From a virus: a stretch of DNA of 45,140 nt. Below the pieces are notes generated by a model. That model was not told where the DNA came from. It made no database searches and saw only the letters and a list, made by a program, of their open reading frames with translations. Location of the stretch: the IMG/VR virus record IMGVR_UViG_3300027525_000008, positions 1 to 45,140 of that record. One strand, written 5' to 3'. Positions 4,378-14,142 of the stretch are shown here, one piece after another (the first letter of the stretch is position 1; each line of letters begins with the position of its first letter). The position numbers and the translations under genes were made by a program.

Positions 4378-6450
4378 TTACTTTAGTGAATTCACCATTT
4401 CTTTTAATACAGATAGTAATTGATCAATTCCTGCATTATGCGCCTTTACCTCATCACTATTGAAGTAATTACCAGGCAGCCAACTATCATCTTGCTTCAT
4501 ATCTTTAAACATTTCTTTCATTTGTTTTGCATAAGCTTCTTTATTGTCAGATTCTGAGAATTGTTTGATAAGTTCTTGTGCTTGCCTTACAATGTTACCT
4601 TCACCAGCCATTATCGCCTGCTTTCCACTTAGTCCTTCCATTGATTTGTCACCAATACCTACGCCAAAGCGACCAGGATTTAACTTTTTTAGAAGTTCTC
4701 TTACTGACAATGCGTCATAAGAAAATTCTGGTGCTGAACCTGCACTACCGGGTATTACCGCATTTGAAACTTGCATAGCACCTGCTGAAACCAAGTTAAA
4801 TCCTGACTCTATACCCAATGCTACTTCACGTGCAGCACCTCTAAGCGAAGATGTTGCAGCGCCCATCTTTGCAATTTCTTGTGTTAATATTAATGATGTT
4901 TCTACAAGCGTAGTCAACGAACCTGCCAGGTCTGTTGCCTTCAATACTAGTGTCTCATTTGCCTCGCCGGCAAGTTTAGCAAATCGTTGTGTCTCAATTA
5001 AAGCATTTATCGCTTTATCTGCTTTAGATAACGGTACTTCACCTTTAGTAGCATCTTCGATTGTCTGCCCAACCTGTGCCAATTGCGTAACGATAGCCTG
5101 AGTCATACCTTCATTTAAATTTACTAATGCTTTGTTGTCTCTTGCAAATTGTAATATAGAATCAAATTGTGGTCCCATGTTTGCATATAATGCATTTGCT
5201 GCTTCGGGTCCTTGTGTCCTTGCAGTTTCTGCCATTTGTGTTATAAGAGGCAAAAGTTTTTGTCCAATTACATCGCCCTGTAACTGCTGTGCAACATCAG
5301 TCTGTAAAAAATCCTGAGTGCTACCTGCTGCCATGGCAGTTGCAATACCAGAACCTAATATTGATCCTTCGCCGCCAAATCTACCAACCATTGCCTCTAC
5401 ATTTTTTCGCATTTCAGGTTCCATCAGTGCTAATTGTGATGCAAATTGGTCTTGTTTTAATGTTTCTGCAATAAGATGTGCAGCATCCTGTAAATTAATT
5501 TTCATAACATTTGAGGTTGAAACCACGGTATCCATAAAATTATCCATGCCCATACGCATCTGATTATCTGACAATTTATCCAATTGACCAATTGAACGTA
5601 CCGATTCCATATATGATCCTGCAATTTCAGCAACCTCACTGAATTCCATACCAAATCGTTGCATCATATCAGAATTGCCTTCACCCGATTTTGCCAAAGT
5701 ATTAGCAAAATCCATTGATGCTTGTACTCCTCTTACACCAACAGCCTGAGAAAATTGCCTTGTAAAATTTGCTGCTTCCCCAAAGGTAAAATTAGAACGT
5801 GATATAGTTTGTGACAAATTTATTAATCCAGCACCTGCAGAATCCATACCTGCAAGTATACCCGATTGTCTCATTTCTTGTGCCATATCATATCTAGCAC
5901 TGGCACCTTCAATTGTTTTAGTATTTGCCGCTTTTGTCGCTGCTCCAATTACAGTAACCACTGAAATGAGTTTCGTAATAGTATCTTTTGTTTCCTCAAA
6001 AAAAGATTCATTAGCTAAGTCAGCAGATTCAATGTTAGCACGTAAATTTGCTTCAGAAGTTGATAATCCTTGCTTTTCATATTCTGCTATACGTTTCGTA
6101 ATATCTAATTGCTTTTTAGCAGTTCTATTCGTATCACTTAATATACTACTTAATGATGCAAGAAATCCAGTTTGTTTTTTGTTTGCAGCAACATTACTTT
6201 CATTGGTTGCATTACCTTGTTTTATTGCAGTCTCAGTTTTTTTCATACCGTTTACTAGATTTGAAAGTGAATTAGATGATTTAGTTTCGCCTTTTGATAT
6301 TTTAGACAATACATTCATTATTTGTCGATTTATATTAGTATTACTACTAAATCCAGCATTTAGCGCATTTAGCACCTGCCGCTGTGTTGCTTCATTGCTC
6401 CACTGTGGTACGCCGGCGCCCAAACCTGAAATAAATACATCTTCTGCCAT
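4378..6450 (-). CDS. Tail tape measure protein (gp29-like baseplate hub/tail length determinant)
   Basis: A 690-residue protein, mostly alpha-helical and rich in Ala, Gln, Ser, Met and Asn, with a hydrophobic stretch near residues 160-175 (TKLISVVTVIGAATKAANT) and repeated helical segments. This composition is typical of tape measure proteins, which fill the tail tube and set its length; T4 gp29 is 590 residues. The assignment is strengthened by the divergent neighbour, a gp26-like gene with a built-in -1 frameshift, the arrangement expected for tape-measure chaperones. The start is supported by an AGAGAGAAA ribosome-binding site, and a GATAAATAC late-type promoter lies 78 bp upstream. No catalytic domain was recognised. 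Sequence similarity to gp29 itself is too weak to see by eye. Confidence 0.78.
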   Translation of the reverse strand: MAEDVFISGLGAGVPQWSNEATQRQVLNALNAGFSSNTNINRQIMNVLSKISKGETKSSNSLSNLVNGMKKTETAIKQGNATNESNVAANKKQTGFLASLSSILSDTNRTAKKQLDITKRIAEYEKQGLSTSEANLRANIESADLANESFFEETKDTITKLISVVTVIGAATKAANTKTIEGASARYDMAQEMRQSGILAGMDSAGAGLINLSQTISRSNFTFGEAANFTRQFSQAVGVRGVQASMDFANTLAKSGEGNSDMMQRFGMEFSEVAEIAGSYMESVRSIGQLDKLSDNQMRMGMDNFMDTVVSTSNVMKINLQDAAHLIAETLKQDQFASQLALMEPEMRKNVEAMVGRFGGEGSILGSGIATAMAAGSTQDFLQTDVAQQLQGDVIGQKLLPLITQMAETARTQGPEAANALYANMGPQFDSILQFARDNKALVNLNEGMTQAIVTQLAQVGQTIEDATKGEVPLSKADKAINALIETQRFAKLAGEANETLVLKATDLAGSLTTLVETSLILTQEIAKMGAATSSLRGAAREVALGIESGFNLVSAGAMQVSNAVIPGSAGSAPEFSYDALSVRELLKKLNPGRFGVGIGDKSMEGLSGKQAIMAGEGNIVRQAQELIKQFSESDNKEAYAKQMKEMFKDMKQDDSWLPGNYFNSDEVKAHNAGIDQLLSVLKEMVNSLK

Positions 6451-6554: not shown

Positions 6555-7394
6555 ATGAATTCCGAAAATCCATTAATTAAATATTTCAGAAAACCAAAAA
6601 TATATGTTACATTACCAACAGGTGGTAGATTTAATCCAGAGTTAAAAACAACACTACTTGATGAAGTAGGTGTTAGCGCAATGTCTGCTATTGATGAAAT
6701 TTCATTGAGAAATCCAGAAGCATTACTCAATGGAGAAGCGATTAAAGGCGTCATTGAAAGTTGTGTGCCAACTATAGGCGATCCAATGAAATTATGTAAT
6801 ATTGATATAGAAGCATTATTCTTGGCAATCCAATATGCTACATACGGAAATGATTTAACACACGAACACACTTGCAGTAATTGTAAAGAAATTGCAGAAT
6901 ATAAAATAGATGTTAATGAAATACTCAATCGTTTCCCTGATATAGACTACATTGATCCAATTCTTTTTGAAGATGTTAATATTCATGTCAGGCCACCTAC
7001 ATTAGAAAATGTAACACGTATGGCACTAATCGATTTGGAACAGAAAAAAATCATACAAAATTTACAAAAAGTTGATGATGACACAGAGGATATGGATATC
7101 GCAAGTAAATTCTATACCAGTTTCAAAAAAATTGCAACATTCAATGTAGACATGCTTGCAAATGCCATTAGTAGAATCGAATCACCTGATGCAGTAGTAG
7201 AAGATACAAATATGATATCAGAATTTTTACAAAACGTACCAACTACAGTAGTAGGACAATTGAATACTGCAATTGAAAAAATCGCTGTAAAACCAGAAGA
7301 TTTAAATAAAATGCAATTCAAATGCGCAGAGTGTGATACAGTAGATGAAATTTATCTGGAGATTAATCCTATAAATTTTTTAGAAGCTGGCTAA
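6555..7394 (+). CDS. 26: gp26-like T4 baseplate protein / tape measure chaperone (zero-frame product)
   Basis: A 279-residue protein of the T4 gp26 type (Pfam T4_baseplate family). The start KYFRKPKIYVTLPTGGRF is a family-typical N-terminus, and two CxxC pairs (C107/C110 in HTCSNC and C257/C260 in FKCAEC) look like a zinc-binding knuckle. T4 gp26 is described as a baseplate hub protein; genes of this kind next to a tape measure and followed by an overlapping frame are better explained as assembly chaperones, like lambda G and G-T (inference). The gene ends shortly after a U UUU UUA slippery heptamer at 7376-7382, in correct phase, beyond which the -1 frame is open for 76 more codons. It is transcribed away from the tape measure gene. 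Confidence 0.85.
   Translation: MNSENPLIKYFRKPKIYVTLPTGGRFNPELKTTLLDEVGVSAMSAIDEISLRNPEALLNGEAIKGVIESCVPTIGDPMKLCNIDIEALFLAIQYATYGNDLTHEHTCSNCKEIAEYKIDVNEILNRFPDIDYIDPILFEDVNIHVRPPTLENVTRMALIDLEQKKIIQNLQKVDDDTEDMDIASKFYTSFKKIATFNVDMLANAISRIESPDAVVEDTNMISEFLQNVPTTVVGQLNTAIEKIAVKPEDLNKMQFKCAECDTVDEIYLEINPINFLEAG
7376..7382 (+). promoter_or_regulatory. Programmed -1 ribosomal frameshift site (T TTT TTA)
   Basis: Zero-frame codons are AAT TTT TTA GAA GCT GGC TAA, so the heptamer T TTT TTA is phased exactly as a canonical X XXY YYZ site (the HIV-1 gag-pol heptamer). The zero-frame stop follows four codons later at 7392-7394. Slipping back one base enters a frame that is open to 7612. Confidence 0.8.
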
Positions 7395-7612
7395 TATCAG
7401 TAAGTCAGCAAGAAATACAAGAAAAATCAGAAAAATACGAAATAGAGCTTGACAAGTTTCATAAAGATATGTTAAAGTTAACATGGTATATGAGAGGAGG
7501 AGTGAGCATATCAGAATTATATGATATGGAAGCGAATCATATATCTCATATAAACTCAATTATTGAAAGTAATTTTGAACTTAGTAAACAAGCAGGAATG
7601 CCAATACTTTAA
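7382..7612 (+). CDS. -1 frameshift extension of the gp26-like protein (gp51-like position)
   Basis: 76 codons in the -1 frame, beginning RSWLISVSQQEIQEKSEKYE and ending KQAGMPIL before TAA at 7610-7612. It is highly charged and helical (ELDKFHKDMLKLTWYMRGG), looks like real coding sequence, and has no ATG near its beginning: the first is about 30 codons in, without a good ribosome-binding site. Expression is therefore expected through the slippery site, giving a 352-residue fusion (276 zero-frame residues plus 76). In T4 the gene next to 26 is 51, an essential hub-assembly factor not found in the virion; in lambda the G-T fusion chaperones the tape measure. The piece fits that role by position, mechanism and size, but I see no direct sequence match to gp51. 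Confidence 0.75.
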   Translation, partial: RSWLISVSQQEIQEKSEKYEIELDKFHKDMLKLTWYMRGGVSISELYDMEANHISHINSIIESNFELSKQAGMPIL

Positions 7613-7625
7613 TATAATTTATATC

Positions 7626-7654
7626 TTGCAATTGTATCCAAAAGGTAGTATAAT
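7626..7654 (+). promoter_or_regulatory. Sigma70-like promoter reading into the structured non-coding region
   Basis: TTGCAA (7626-7631), a 17-bp spacer, TATAAT (7649-7654). It starts 14 bp after the frameshift-extension stop and reads into the non-coding stretch at 7660-8383. No gene starts for more than 700 bp downstream, so the first product is probably RNA. Confidence 0.6.
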
Positions 7655-7675
7655 TGTTTAATATAATAATGCTAA

Positions 7676-7683
7676 TATAAATA
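7676..7683 (+). promoter_or_regulatory. T4-type late promoter core TATAAATA upstream of the structured region
   Basis: An exact TATAAATA core about 20 bp downstream of the sigma70-like -10 box and on the same strand. Together the two sites would let the non-coding stretch be transcribed both early and late. The sequence around it is very AT-rich, so chance occurrence is possible. Confidence 0.45.
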
Positions 7684-7764
7684 AATCACACTATTAAAAC
7701 TAACATAAAACTAACATAAAGAACACAAAGCTAATACAATGATTATCACATCTAATATAAATTA

Positions 7765-8200
7765 CATAGTGGATCTGTTAGTTGGGTTGCCAACTCGGGA
7801 TTGAATCTGCCAGTGTAAAAACTGTTGCCGTTGGACTAGTGGGGATGAATTCCTACAATCTTCTCGTAAACCACATATACAAGTATTCTAATTACAACAG
7901 CCACGGCTCTAAAGGCGCGTGGTTGACCAGTTTAATAATATAACCGATGATAGGCTACTATAGCACTATCGACTCTGTGATGTTTTTTAATGTATAGATA
8001 TCATAAGGGTGCCGTTGGGTCGTAAGACGCAATAGTGAATGACGAGGGGATCGCCAACCGACCTCGCTGTATCTGGCAGCTAGTTCACATACATTAGGTA
8101 CGAAACATAGGACAGAACACAACCTGTTTATAGTTTTTTATCAATTGTCCTGGCAACAGGGCAATTGTGGATACTCTTCAGGACAGAATATATAAGATTG
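7765..8200 (+). ncRNA. Candidate large structured non-coding RNA
   Basis: The 771-bp gap 7613-8383 has no credible gene, yet 7765-8200 is visibly richer in G and C than its surroundings and dense in hairpins. AGTTGG/CCAACT closes a GTTG loop at 7780-7795. CCACG/CGTGG pairs at 7901-7922. A 9-bp stem with one bulged A spans 7949-7970. A GTAA tetraloop lies at 8019-8028. CGAGG/CCTCG pairs at 8043-8066. An 11-bp stem with a GCAA tetraloop spans 8142-8167. CTGCCAG (7807-7813) can pair with CTGGCAG (8073-8079), which would close a large multibranch domain. TGCCGTTGG occurs at 7826 and 8010, AGGACAGAA at 8109 and 8180. Promoters lie upstream at 7626-7683. The ends are approximate. Phages are known to carry giant ornate RNAs such as GOLLD and ROOL; I cannot assign a class. 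From 8200 to 8383 the sequence is AT-rich with a weak AGGTC/GACCT hairpin at 8305-8318 and nothing else clear. Confidence 0.6.
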
Positions 8201-8383
8201 ATTATATTATATAATATCTAATACCATATAATAATATTATTAATTTAAAAAACAAATACTGAATTAATTGAATGAGTGGAACGAAAGAAATTAATGAAAG
8301 TATTAGGTCTTTAGACCTTTAAAGATAACTACATAATTACTATAGTTAAATAGATAGTAATGATTATATAGAAATGGACAGAT

Positions 8384-8929
8384 ATGGCTAGTAAAAGTAA
8401 AACAAAAGGAAGTAGTTATGAACGTGATGTTGCTAAATTTCTAAGTGAGAAATATGGTGATAGCTTTGTACGTGTTCCCAATAGTGGTGCATACATCGGT
8501 GGTAGTAACTTCCATCGTGCACAGCATCTTAGTGAAGGCCAAGTTCGTAGTTTTAAGGGAGATATTATTCCACCAGATGATTGGAAGTATTTTAATTGTG
8601 AGTGTAAGAATTATGCAGACTTTACATTTCACCACTTTTTTATGGATAAACATATACCGATATTAGAAGATTGGATTGACCAATGTCTTGATGTTGCCGA
8701 AGATAATGATGTTAATATTATGTTTATTAAAATTACTCGTAAAGGTCAATTTATTTGTTATCCGGAACGTATGTATCAGGCGGGATTCACAACAACTAAC
8801 TATACAATATATGATAGTGCAAAGCACGGTAAATGGATTTTTGCCGCATGGGATCCATTTTGGATGAAGAATACAGATAAGATCAAAGATGCGTGTGTCA
8901 ATGGATTTGACAAAAATTCTTTTTACTAA
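8384..8929 (+). CDS. PDDEXK nuclease resembling Hjc-type Holliday junction resolvase
   Basis: A 181-residue protein with the order of motifs seen in archaeal Hjc-like and related PDDEXK nucleases: KGSSYERDVAKFL at the N-terminus (E13), RVPNSGAYIGGS, then KGDIIPP (D60) and NCECKN (E73-x-K75). E13, D60, E73 and K75 would form the metal-binding catalytic set. Hjc enzymes cut four-way DNA junctions; in a T4-like phage such an activity could help resolve or debranch replicating DNA, the job of endonuclease VII (gp49) in T4, but the biochemical role here is inferred. The gene is alone on the plus strand after the non-coding region. Its TAA stop overlaps the TAG stop of the convergent downstream gene. 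The ribosome-binding site is weak. Confidence 0.65.
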   Translation: MASKSKTKGSSYERDVAKFLSEKYGDSFVRVPNSGAYIGGSNFHRAQHLSEGQVRSFKGDIIPPDDWKYFNCECKNYADFTFHHFFMDKHIPILEDWIDQCLDVAEDNDVNIMFIKITRKGQFICYPERMYQAGFTTTNYTIYDSAKHGKWIFAAWDPFWMKNTDKIKDACVNGFDKNSFY

Positions 8930-11653: not shown

Positions 11654-12256
11654 CTACCTCTCTCTTGCGAATTGTCCTGATTGAATTGGATCTAAACTAA
11701 TTTCGTTTATATTAACATATTCTGGTTGAGAAAGCAACCATAAAATAGTTTCTGCAATATACTCAACGTCTAATAGTTTTCTATCTGGATGCTTTTTAAT
11801 AACATTTGGTGTTGTTAGACTACCCGGAGATAACAATGTGGTTTTTACATTTGAACCACCAATTGCCATGTAGGATAAATCTCTGTTATAGTTTTTCAAT
11901 GCTTTCTTTTCCGTTGGGTATCTCCAAGTTCTTCCTTTAACACCTGTATCTGCAGTACTTCCAATATGTATGAAATGTGCAGACACTTGTTCATCTTTGA
12001 TACGATTGTACATTGTCTCTGCTAACAATGTTTGGTGGAACTTCCACATAGCAGAATTGTTTATAAAGACATTGCAGCCTTCAGATATGAAAAAGTCTGC
12101 TAATTTGTTTTGCATTTGCTGTGATGTAAGATCCCAATCATTTACCCTAGAAGCAGTAAAATAATCAATGTTATCCACAGTATCAAAAAGATTACATATT
12201 TCTTTACAAAGCCCATATTCTTTATTACCTGTTATTAAGACTCTCTTATAGTCCAT
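11654..12256 (-). CDS. Short-chain dehydrogenase/reductase-like protein between genes 47 and 46
   Basis: A 200-residue Rossmann-fold protein of the SDR type. The N-terminus VLITGNKEYGLCKEI (residues 6-20) corresponds to the TGxxxGxG nucleotide-binding loop, but in altered form. NNSA (residues 66-69) stands for the family NNAG. A Ser in HIGSTADT, then YPTEKKA (Tyr-xxx-Lys), provide the catalytic Ser, Tyr and Lys, and LLSPGSLTTP is the PG motif. SDR enzymes oxidise or reduce hydroxyl or carbonyl groups with NAD(P); the substrate cannot be told. The length is about 50 residues shorter than typical. The gene overlaps the end of gene 47 by 11 nt and precedes gene 46 by 7 nt, so it is translationally embedded in the recombination operon. 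Confidence 0.7.
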   Translation of the reverse strand: MDYKRVLITGNKEYGLCKEICNLFDTVDNIDYFTASRVNDWDLTSQQMQNKLADFFISEGCNVFINNSAMWKFHQTLLAETMYNRIKDEQVSAHFIHIGSTADTGVKGRTWRYPTEKKALKNYNRDLSYMAIGGSNVKTTLLSPGSLTTPNVIKKHPDRKLLDVEYIAETILWLLSQPEYVNINEISLDPIQSGQFARER

Positions 12257-13268
12257 TATAAATCTCTATTAATATATTTTTATCAAAAGTTCCATCTAAT
12301 GATGTTAACTGTGATAATACAATTTGATCGATAGTTTCAAAATGTATCTCAGCAGATGTATCTTCTTCGTGTTCGTTTGACTTCACAGGAACAAGTGTTA
12401 TATCACGCAATGAATATGTTTCAATAAAGGTATCTTTGATAAAATTTGCCTCTTCGTATGATATATCAATATCAAGTGAAACTTTAACTGTTGACTTGGG
12501 TAGTAAATACTTATCCGGATCGTCTAATAACTTTGAAAGTTGTATCGTCTTGTATTTTGGTGCATCTCTCCAAGCATAAAATTCAGGTTCACCATCCCAT
12601 TCTAAAAACATCCACCCGCGGTCATCATCCCATGCATCAGAGAAGTTATGAGGGAATGCATTACCAGTATAGATAATGTTATCTTTAACTTGTCGCTGAT
12701 GGAAATGACCAGTAAATACATAGTCTTGGTTGGCAAACATCTCACGCTTTAGACCGCCGTGATCTGGCATCTCTACCATTGCATTCAATTTGAATGTAGG
12801 CAGTTCAAAGTGACCAAACATATACTTGGATTTGATTTTCGGAACTTTCTTCCATTCATCGCCTACTAGCCAACTTACTAGTGCAACATCACCATTAATG
12901 GTTGTATCATCAACAACTGTGATATTTTCAAATTCCTTAGCAAACTCTACGCTACTAACTTCACGACTTTCACGATAAAATAAATCATGATTACCTTTAA
13001 TGAAATAAACATTTTCAAATGCATCATTGAGTTTACGTAAACTCTCAATAGAATATTTCATTGTTGATATATTTAAACTGGCACGATTATGATGCCAATC
13101 CCCGCCGAATATACACGTTTCGCATCCGCGCTCTTTTGCTTGCTCAATAAACCAATCAACAAAGTCACTACAATCTTTATTGTGTTGTTGTGCGTTGTTT
13201 CGCATTCCAAAATGTATATCTGTAAAGTATGCTAATTTTTTGAATAAATTATCACTCATCGTCTGCAT
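12246..13268 (-). CDS. 47: Recombination endonuclease nuclease subunit gp47 (Mre11/SbcD-like)
   Basis: A calcineurin-like metallophosphoesterase of about 340 residues, close to T4 gp47 (339). The metal-binding motifs are in order: DIHFG (D-x-H), GGDWHHNR, KGNHD and GHFHQRQ. With gp46 it forms the Mre11-Rad50-type complex that resects DNA ends. Two starts are possible: ATG at 13268, with AAAGAGA close upstream, or ATG at 13259 (MSDNLFKKL), which overlaps the gp55 stop as ATGAGTGA and better matches a T4-like N-terminus. The gene lies directly downstream of gp55 in the same operon. Confidence 0.95.
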   Translation of the reverse strand: MQTMSDNLFKKLAYFTDIHFGMRNNAQQHNKDCSDFVDWFIEQAKERGCETCIFGGDWHHNRASLNISTMKYSIESLRKLNDAFENVYFIKGNHDLFYRESREVSSVEFAKEFENITVVDDTTINGDVALVSWLVGDEWKKVPKIKSKYMFGHFELPTFKLNAMVEMPDHGGLKREMFANQDYVFTGHFHQRQVKDNIIYTGNAFPHNFSDAWDDDRGWMFLEWDGEPEFYAWRDAPKYKTIQLSKLLDDPDKYLLPKSTVKVSLDIDISYEEANFIKDTFIETYSLRDITLVPVKSNEHEEDTSAEIHFETIDQIVLSQLTSLDGTFDKNILIEIYNGL

Positions 13269-14142
13269 AAATCTCTTTAATAGTTTCTGTTGGTATTTGG
13301 TCGTCTGTGATATTAGTTCTAATAATTTTCTTCCACCGCTCTTGTGACTTCATTTCATGTTCAAGTTGTCTTGTCCAACTAGGAGCCTGCCCTGATTTCT
13401 CTAATAGATCATCTCTGATGCCTTGATTTTTCTTTTCGATATTAAGAACACGTGTGAATGAATTATTGACTGCTGCTGTGTAATAAGCAAATGGATTATC
13501 TGATTTTGCTTCATTAAACTGTAGTCCAATTTGTGTCAACTGTAATAATGCTTGTCCTCTCATTTCGTCAATATATGTGTATCCACGCCAGTTACCACGC
13601 TGTGAATAGCGTTCTACAAGTTTGATATACATATTTGCCAATGTAGCAGTAATCTTACCAGATGTCAAGTCAAATTCTTTATCTTTATTGTGATGTGATA
13701 TACCTACTTCAGAAACTTCGCCATTTCTTAGAATATAATGCTTGTAAGGTGGAAAGTTTAATTTAACTTTGTGATCTGCTACAGTCTTGGGATTTAGTTT
13801 TCTGCCAGGTTCATCCGGAATATGTTCAAATGTCATAACACGGAATACTAATTCTTCTTCATTGAATGAATTTTTGTCTACAGCAAAATCAACTTGTTTT
13901 TTCTTTTTGTCAGTGTTCAAATCCCATGCAGCCTTTTGAATACGGTCTGCCTTTGTCTGTCTAGCAACATCCATTAATGAATTTAGTTCTGTTTTTAGAT
14001 CAAGTTCACCAGCAATATTATCAATGATTACATCAAATTGATTGTATAGGTCACGATCTTCAAACCATGAAAAATTAGATTTAGAAATATGAATTTGTTT
14101 TAGCATATCTCTATTGTTTAAATAATTTTGCCTTCTGGCCAT
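13252..14142 (-). CDS. 55: Late-transcription sigma factor gp55
   Basis: A 296-residue protein with a sigma region 2-like block: YIDEMRGQALLQLTQIGLQF, then NPFAYYTAAVNNSFTRVLNI (about residues 197-242). T4 gp55 directs host RNA polymerase to TATAAATA late promoters. The protein is much longer than T4 gp55 (185 residues); roughly 100 extra residues lie upstream of the sigma core, including a basic, conserved-looking segment (GRKLNPKTVADHKVKLNFPP). It is first in its operon, preceded by AGGAGA and a consensus sigma70 promoter (14171-14199), consistent with expression before the late genes. It ends TGA TAA, overlapping the start of gene 47. Confidence 0.88.
   Translation of the reverse strand: MARRQNYLNNRDMLKQIHISKSNFSWFEDRDLYNQFDVIIDNIAGELDLKTELNSLMDVARQTKADRIQKAAWDLNTDKKKKQVDFAVDKNSFNEEELVFRVMTFEHIPDEPGRKLNPKTVADHKVKLNFPPYKHYILRNGEVSEVGISHHNKDKEFDLTSGKITATLANMYIKLVERYSQRGNWRGYTYIDEMRGQALLQLTQIGLQFNEAKSDNPFAYYTAAVNNSFTRVLNIEKKNQGIRDDLLEKSGQAPSWTRQLEHEMKSQERWKKIIRTNITDDQIPTETIKEIYADDE

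Follow-up and report, generated by a model that had tools for sequence, protein, structure and literature searches.

Judged from its sequence, the stretch of DNA analysed here (the window, all 45,140 nt of the IMG/VR virus record IMGVR_UViG_3300027525_000008) encodes a real structured non-coding RNA of ~430 nt at positions 7764-8190 on the plus strand. The RNA is conserved on 106 other viral contigs, its helices covary and it keeps a fixed place behind a baseplate hub gene; its ends are inferred from conservation. RNAs with the same core occur in cultured and in other uncultured jumbo phages. Beyond the initial annotation, the analysis shows that RNAs sharing this core occupy the corresponding locus in other jumbo phages, some with the Rfam family RF01718 beside the core.

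Proteins of the window find their matches in jumbo phages of the RaK2-like group. A segment of the baseplate-wedge protein has matches in 63 of 50,697 phage records (identities of 37.8-40.3% among the best 25 of the 63), the matches listed including SCTP-2, Erwinia and Serratia phages, relatives of PA5oct and Munch; the hub protein has matches in 61 phage records. A homologue of a late sigma factor is encoded at 13252-14142 (phrog_12791). The T4-like baseplate hub gene (6555-7394, plus strand; PF12322 4.7e-13, phrog_150, synteny) is the constant upstream neighbour of the RNA, present in every homologue row with at least 1.5 kb of upstream sequence. The genes downstream vary. In the window a PDDEXK or resolvase-like gene (8384-8929, plus strand; PF24608 2.4e-28, phrog_244 2e-18) starts ~190 nt behind the end of the RNA on the same strand, and this gene is not found beside the RNA in many homologues. 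Directly after the hub gene, 7394-7612 is an open frame of 72 aa without an established start codon and without Pfam or PHROG matches.

The initial annotation had described a large structured phage RNA in a gene-free, relatively GC-rich stretch of about 430 nt, and this description holds. The ORF scan of the window shows no ORF of at least 60 aa on either strand between 7394 and 8384, and the G+C content is 0.424 in 7764-8190 vs 0.335 in the whole window. Folding of 7760-8200 compared with dinucleotide shuffles yields a z-score of -3.19 for the plus strand and -0.74 for the minus strand.

Viral contigs were searched with the downstream nuclease, resulting in 33 loci, of which 22 (L001-L022) carry the RNA upstream and 11 (L023-L033) are without it. 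Three DNA patterns together with a profile search led to 132 RNA-positive loci among 278; 26 viral or phage loci in all are without a profile match in that search. The count of 106 contigs besides the window's own record was reached after three same-contig duplicates had been taken out by hand. Fifteen of the 132 RNA-positive loci are partial and were excluded from the alignments. Distinct full-length sequences amount to 59 including the window (weighted number ~34 at 95% identity), with pairwise identities down to 57%. A covariance model of the window-type RNA (R1) detects a single copy in the window and a single copy per contig in six window-type contigs (78-343 kb). A scan of genome contigs with a generic pattern returned at least 120 stretches, the best with a profile E of 0.17, which was taken as chance.

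The secondary structure was evaluated on an alignment of 59 sequences with 58 distinct rows (A3). The model consists of 86 pairs in 16 helices, is pseudoknotted and leaves 97.5% of the cells paired. Covariation in homologues, the test named by the initial annotation, is strong: two-sided changes occur in 40 of the 86 pairs, whereas shuffles reach 30.8 and slid versions of the model 5-10, and the covariation score is 0.358 vs 0.167 in shuffles. Neither value is reached by any of 500 shuffles. Further pair types are no more numerous in this model than in shuffles (83 vs 89.1).

All structural elements lie on the plus strand. P1 closes the 5' domain (GUGG 7769-7772 with CCAC 7871-7874). It is paired in all rows and nearly invariant, hence it shows no covariation. 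Hairpin A (7780-7785/7790-7795) has two-sided changes in 4 of 6 pairs with 100% of cells paired, hairpin B (7805-7812/7825-7832) in 5 of 8 with 86.6% paired, and hairpins C (7839-7844/7851-7856) and D (7898-7903/7920-7925) in 3 of 6 each. The loop of C reaches out to a strand further downstream (PK-C, GAAU 7847-7850 with AUUC 7885-7888); this pairing is complete in 53 of the 59 sequences, 97.8% of its cells are paired, and one of its pairs is C-G or U-A in 53 of the 58 distinct rows.

Further downstream come hairpin F (7949-7970, 5 of 7 pairs two-sided) and stem G (7972-8010). With the LR strand held unpaired, the predicted fold of stem G has at least 10 bp in 56 of the 59 sequences and none in 3. 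The long-range helix LR (7989-7995/8089-8095; 5 of 7 pairs two-sided, 99.3% of cells paired) is a pseudoknot in its own right, since the loop of stem G provides its 5' strand. A second core pseudoknot, PK-H, joins GUUGG 8014-8018 to CCAAC 8054-8058 in the loop of hairpin I. It is complete in 59/59, its last pair being G-C or A-U, and the column pair 8018/8054 has the highest corrected mutual information in a 47-sequence alignment, where structurally meaningless columns also rank high. Between these strands lie hairpin H with a GNRA loop (8019-8028, 2 of 3 pairs two-sided) and the 5' strand of stem I0 (8035-8040/8083-8088, 4 of 6), which surrounds hairpin I (8044-8047/8062-8065 and 8051-8053/8059-8061, 2 of 4). 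Hairpin K (8066-8069/8077-8080) is formed in all 59 sequences with 3 of 4 pairs two-sided. Its loop (CUGG 8073-8076) pairs with CCAG 7927-7930 (PK-K), again in 59/59, with one pair being U-A in 37 and C-G in 21 of the 58 distinct rows. Hairpin J (8142-8167) is found near the 3' end with 97.3% of cells paired and one pair two-sided.

The local hairpins of the initial annotation are real, including its two GNRA loops (GUAA 8022-8025 and GCAA within the loop of J). Its 7-bp long-range pairing 7807-7813/8073-8079 has to be given up: it is complete in only 6 of 59 sequences and its bases are used by hairpins and loop pairings, with hairpin K formed throughout and hairpin B falling below 5 of its 8 pairs in none of the 59. 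Two pairs of 9-nt repeats had also been pointed out. The copies of TGCCGTTGG at 7826 and 8010 are exact, but they are no conserved duplication, as the first copy reads so in only 11 of 59 sequences.

The other pair, AGGACAGAA at 8109-8117 and 8180-8188 (plus strand), is likewise exact and represents a conserved feature. These direct repeats flank J and change together between lineages, with GGACAG, GAACAAG, TGACAAG, TATCAAG and GGCAAG as variants. The mean match between the two repeats is 7.0 nt (19 distinct 3' copies) vs 5.43 +/- 0.25 after permutation (0/2000), a difference that kinship may inflate; in 12 of the 59 sequences only 4-5 nt match. A complement of the repeats was sought inside the RNA and no consistent partner was found. 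Pairing of the segment from the 5' repeat to J with the 3' repeat is slightly above permutation (5.02 vs 4.60, 0/300), too weak to explain the co-change.

Conservation puts the start of the RNA near 7764 and not at 7626, where the initial annotation had it begin. Just upstream, at 7752-7757 on the plus strand, a CTAATA element may represent a -10 promoter element; CTAATA or CAATAA is present in 53 of 54 homologues. The motif is frequent in the AT-rich window, with 35 sites on the plus and 38 on the minus strand. CTAATAT is also seen 25-48 nt before four window genes (15277, 4378-6450 on the minus strand, 12246-13268 on the minus strand, and 40162), and so it may be a promoter element of the source phage. 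The proposed late promoter TATAAATA is indeed present exactly at 7676-7683. As a conserved promoter it was rejected, since it lies within 200 nt upstream in only 6 of the 54 homologues with enough upstream sequence.

In a comparison with all Rfam families the window has no match at gathering level, and no relevant match up to E 10 is present in 7600-8390; the sole listing within this limit, a yeast snoRNA, scores far under its cut-off. This agrees with the earlier suggestion of an unnamed class. The covariance models of GOLLD and ROOL leave the window unmatched at gathering level and 7600-8390 unmatched up to E 10. The likeness in scale to GOLLD and ROOL is borne out, but the RNA belongs to neither family. 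Group I introns, RNase P and tmRNA have no Rfam match either, and ARAGORN predicts no tmRNA. No tRNAs are found in the window or in 30 RNA-bearing loci; in the genome of phage CBB 28 tRNAs are found at 268-321 kb, at least 10 kb from any copy of the related RNA described below. A literature search on jumbo-phage non-coding RNA, covering sources outside most subscription journals, yielded no title or abstract opening that describes this RNA, and the words non-coding, noncoding, ncRNA and sRNA are all absent from the main text of the CBB genome paper (PMC5259590).

For cultured relatives we compared the loci of Phosso, Paride, PBECO4, XaC1 and CBB. The gene order in all five is portal, structural protein, hub, a long gene-poor stretch, and resolvase or endonuclease VII, with extra small genes between the hub and the gene-poor stretch in some. 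A gp46-type gene comes next after the resolvase or endonuclease VII in Paride, PBECO4, XaC1 and CBB. By blastn the gap of PBECO4 is matched in 40 of 50,697 phage records, counting PBECO4's own, at 2-5 places in 38 of them. The annotation under the best match shows no feature in 27 of the 40 records and only hypothetical proteins in 11, while 2 records are unannotated. Short ORFs are annotated over the RNA in some records, e.g. three in Erwinia phage Hallingskeid (L312). RaK2-like phages carry a structured RNA of ~500 nt in 4-5 copies per genome, dispersed and all on one strand, for instance at PBECO4 304904-305414 (L135:5212-5739; copies L291, L294, L297). The host given in the Sharanji record is E. 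coli K-12 MG1655.

An alignment of the core of these RNAs, read from the strand that does not carry the hub, comprises 18 copies of nine phages and has two-sided changes in 15 of 21 pairs with 99.7% paired (0/500 shuffles); L299 and L301 were left out of alignment A5. A model of the cultured core (R2) detects 5 copies in the genomes of XaC1, CBB, Munch and GAP32 alike and 4 in that of PBECO4, with E from 2e-14 to 2e-26. Most of the PBECO4, XaC1 and CBB copies had gone into building R2, and 4 of the 5 copies in Munch and GAP32 had not. Neither R1 nor R2 finds the RNA in Phosso, Paride or SCTP-2. Phosso has no gene in L133:6229-7244 and Paride mostly tiny ORFs in L134:4852-7042, stretches that neither model matches. 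Fold z-scores of the two strands are -2.1 and -2.8 in Phosso and 0.0 and -1.2 in Paride. These stretches may hold a further diverged or a different RNA.

The window-type and the cultured RNAs have one helix order in common: the LR strand in the loop of G, the CCG-pseudoknot strand, I0, I with its CAACC loop, a hairpin, I0 and LR. CCGUUG and CAACC strands are used in both groups. The strand is that of the hub in the window group and the opposite one in the cultured phages, and blastn gives no meaningful match between the groups. When R1 was run without filters on 14 cultured loci (44 kb), true cores ranked 1, 2 and 7 of 14 (E 2.0, 2.3 and 4.9); on the whole records of PBECO4, XaC1 and CBB, with stricter filters, nothing appeared up to E 10. 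Conversely, R2 did not pick up the RNA in three window-type records, where its sole match (E 0.445) lies elsewhere, and of its 13 matches on 13 window-type loci 4 (3 of them independent) are in register, with E 6.5-9, behind noise. In a joint alignment of window-type and cultured cores the CAACC strand was misaligned, therefore a joint model was not built.

An alignment of seven hub proteins was used to collect at least 80 hub loci from viral contigs, and 72 of 80 were scanned with R1 and R2, L361-L367 and L385 being excluded as close relatives. R1 matches L369 (1.2e-21) and L429/L433 (0.23), as well as L404 (2.4) off the locus. R2 matches L392 (0.53), L420 (0.61), L429/L433 (0.82) and L403 (2.2), with L436 (1.2) and L378 (4.2) out of place. 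All matches at the locus lie soon after the hub and, except for L369, on the opposite strand. L429/L433 is an intermediate in which R1 and R2 match one and the same place. With a profile from four matched loci, 30 of the 82 loci searched (seeds included) have a match to the RNA at E <=0.01, which lies on the opposite strand in 28 of the 30. Without filters, R1 ranks true cores of ten intermediate loci 1, 2, 16 and 18 of 20 (E 0.031, 0.28, 7.7 and 8.8). The sets hold identical loci, e.g. L429/L433 (core), L373/L374, L426/L435 and L408/L411.

A looser topology scan was unspecific, and a CC-anchored descriptor of the core was used instead. Out of 43 regions (8 cultured, 5 window-type, 30 others) it parses 37, but only 3 of 860 sequences made by shuffling these regions; some parses are misplaced by eye (L291). 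Bacterial DNA gives 574 hits in 1.81 Mb, counting both strands, hence the descriptor is specific only in the context of this locus. The parsed pseudoknot pairs differ (GUUGG/CCAAC, GUUGC/GCAAC, GUCAU/AUGAC, GUCGU/ACGAC), and so do the parsed LR pairs (UCUAUGU/ACAUAGA, AUUGUAU/AUACAAU, UUAGCGUU/AACGCUAA). We define a hub-locus RNA superfamily by LR, the CCG pseudoknot, I0 and I in fixed order, all of which the window RNA contains. Seemingly the uncultured intermediates link the window-type with the cultured RNAs, by a cross-detection that is weak (E 0.03-9) and largely in register.

Some intermediates carry a known family. Of the 20 intermediate hub loci scanned, 14 contain RF01718 (Polynucleobacter-1) by its gathering threshold, on the RNA strand just 5' of the core (L386:4377-4514, L426:5343-5479 and 12 other hub loci, minus strand). 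The distance to the core is ~50-60 nt in L386 and L426, which were checked. The descriptor parses the core in all 14 loci, and R1 matches the cores of L375, L414 and L377 in register, weakly (E 0.28, 7.7 and 8.8). We infer that RF01718 and the adjoining core form one RNA. The RNA of the window has no match to the RF01718 model up to E 10 and is not a member of that family; what they have in common is the adjoining core. By eye the window-type 5' domain resembles the RF01718 region, a resemblance that a model of this domain (R3) does not confirm: its best match touching the region has E 1.2 in an unclean register and its top match (E 0.5) lies elsewhere. The list of 5' domains does not include L153, and alignment A7 comprises 32 of the 48 listed. 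A blastn search of the phage collection gives no match to the RF01718-type RNA of L386. RF01718, 141 nt long, was listed in 2010 for Burkholderiales and for fresh water and estuary samples in the available text of Weinberg 2010 (PMC2864571), the only paper in which the term was found by a literature search covering sources outside most subscription journals.

Based on this analysis, we propose that the RNA of 7764-8190 is a structured, free-standing product of RaK2-like jumbo phages. Its 5' domain of hairpins A-D, closed by GUGG/CCAC, is joined to a 3' core with two pseudoknots. In one of them (LR) the loop of stem G pairs with the strand following stem I0, in the other a GUUGR strand pairs with YCAAC, which hairpin I presents in its loop. 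Hairpin K has its loop pinned back onto the 5' half, and a GNRA hairpin between the co-varying direct repeats forms the 3' end. Transcription is probably driven by an own promoter with the CTAATA element. In the infected cell the RNA would act in trans via its fold, be it as a scaffold, within an RNP or in an RNA-only assembly. We consider it likely that the RNA is of this free-standing, trans-acting kind and works through its knotted fold. Action in trans is favoured because the strand and the downstream neighbours change while the RNA stays, which is how an independent gene behaves. On the other hand, four to five dispersed copies fit a role in cis as well as one in trans.

Other explanations have to be weighed against this proposal. 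The gap is gene-sized and could stem from a decayed protein gene. No coding reading survived, however: no conserved frame was seen among the compared loci, the longest complete ORF in the RNA has a median of 53 aa and a maximum of 88 (59 sequences, either strand), and the strong compensatory changes refute this origin, to which we give practically no credence. A leader or riboswitch regulating the downstream nuclease gene in cis would agree with the window, where the RNA precedes 8384 closely and on the same strand. This is very improbable, as the downstream gene differs among lineages while the RNA is kept, and at the hub locus of PBECO4, CBB and GAP32 both flanking genes run antisense to the RNA. 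Another possibility is that the RNAs of the window and of the cultured phages are unrelated and that a similar pseudoknot arose at the same locus by convergence. The missing blastn similarity, the cross-group E-values of 0.03-9 with R1 blank in whole cultured records, and the opposite strands would be expected then. Helix order, CCGUUG and CAACC strands and locus are nevertheless all common to both groups, cross matches are in register and L429/L433 is matched by both models, so that we regard convergence as rather doubtful.

The main rival is an element for replication origin or genome maintenance acting in cis, because the copies are evenly spaced in some genomes. Each copy would mark a replication origin, with the transcript serving as R-loop or primer, as transcripts do at the replication origins of T4. 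In CBB, GAP32 and Munch five copies lie on one strand, 52-84 kb apart, and the chance of so large a smallest gap is 0.0053, 0.0045 and 0.0031, respectively, assuming a circular map and with genomes that are not independent (CBB was taken without its terminal repeat). Moreover, genes for endonuclease VII or a resolvase and genes of the gp46 type are among the neighbours at the hub locus. Against this, the copies of XaC1 (0.070) and PBECO4 (0.047) are spaced less evenly, R1 finds just one copy in each of the six window-type contigs, and the GC skew of CBB has no turn at the copies except the hub copy, where the gene strand changes. An origin role is accordingly rated as unlikely, though not negligible. 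It is possible, but not probable, that the RNA forms an RNA-only cage or oligomer, by analogy with GOLLD and ROOL in function while being a different family. It is a large, ornate, pseudoknotted phage RNA whose loop pairings could be intermolecular, and ROOL and GOLLD form cages according to the available text of PMC12286853. Neither of their Rfam models matches, and the 30 RNA-bearing loci are free of tRNAs, unlike GOLLD and ROOL, which the same text places often near tRNA islands.

Returning to an RNA acting through its fold, we lean towards one ancient RNA superfamily running through the RaK2-like jumbo phages. Its sequence would have changed almost wholly while the double-pseudoknot core and the position at the hub were kept, with five evenly spaced copies on one strand in some enterobacterial phages. 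It would represent an RNA machine of infection or the RNA part of a multi-origin replication, and Polynucleobacter-1 would be a fragment of it. Giant phages that infect E. coli, Salmonella and related bacteria carry RNAs with this core, for the most part without annotation, which suggests that jumbo phages carry conserved RNA machines missed by gene annotation. As cultured E. coli phages carry the family, the job of the RNA is now testable in laboratory phages, and the orphan RF01718 gains a phage context.

Compared with known systems, the window RNA resembles GOLLD and ROOL as a large, ornate, pseudoknotted phage RNA; these too are without an established function in the available text of PMC12286853. 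It differs from both by its fixed position after the baseplate hub, away from tRNAs, and by matching neither Rfam family, and from GOLLD also by its shorter length, many GOLLD RNAs exceeding 800 nt. The manA and wcaG motifs, in the available text of Weinberg 2010, are likewise structured RNAs of phages and marine metagenomes; they are tied to metabolic genes, and the window RNA has no Rfam match. The RNA found here in the RaK2-like phages 121Q, PBECO4, Munch, GAP32, CBB and XaC1 shares LR, CCGUUG/CAACC, I0 and I with the window RNA and has one copy at the hub locus. It differs by its opposite strand and its 4-5 copies per genome, with blastn not significant and covariance model scores weak across the groups. 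Polynucleobacter-1, finally, is connected by the intermediates that carry RF01718, as these have the same pseudoknot core as the window RNA.
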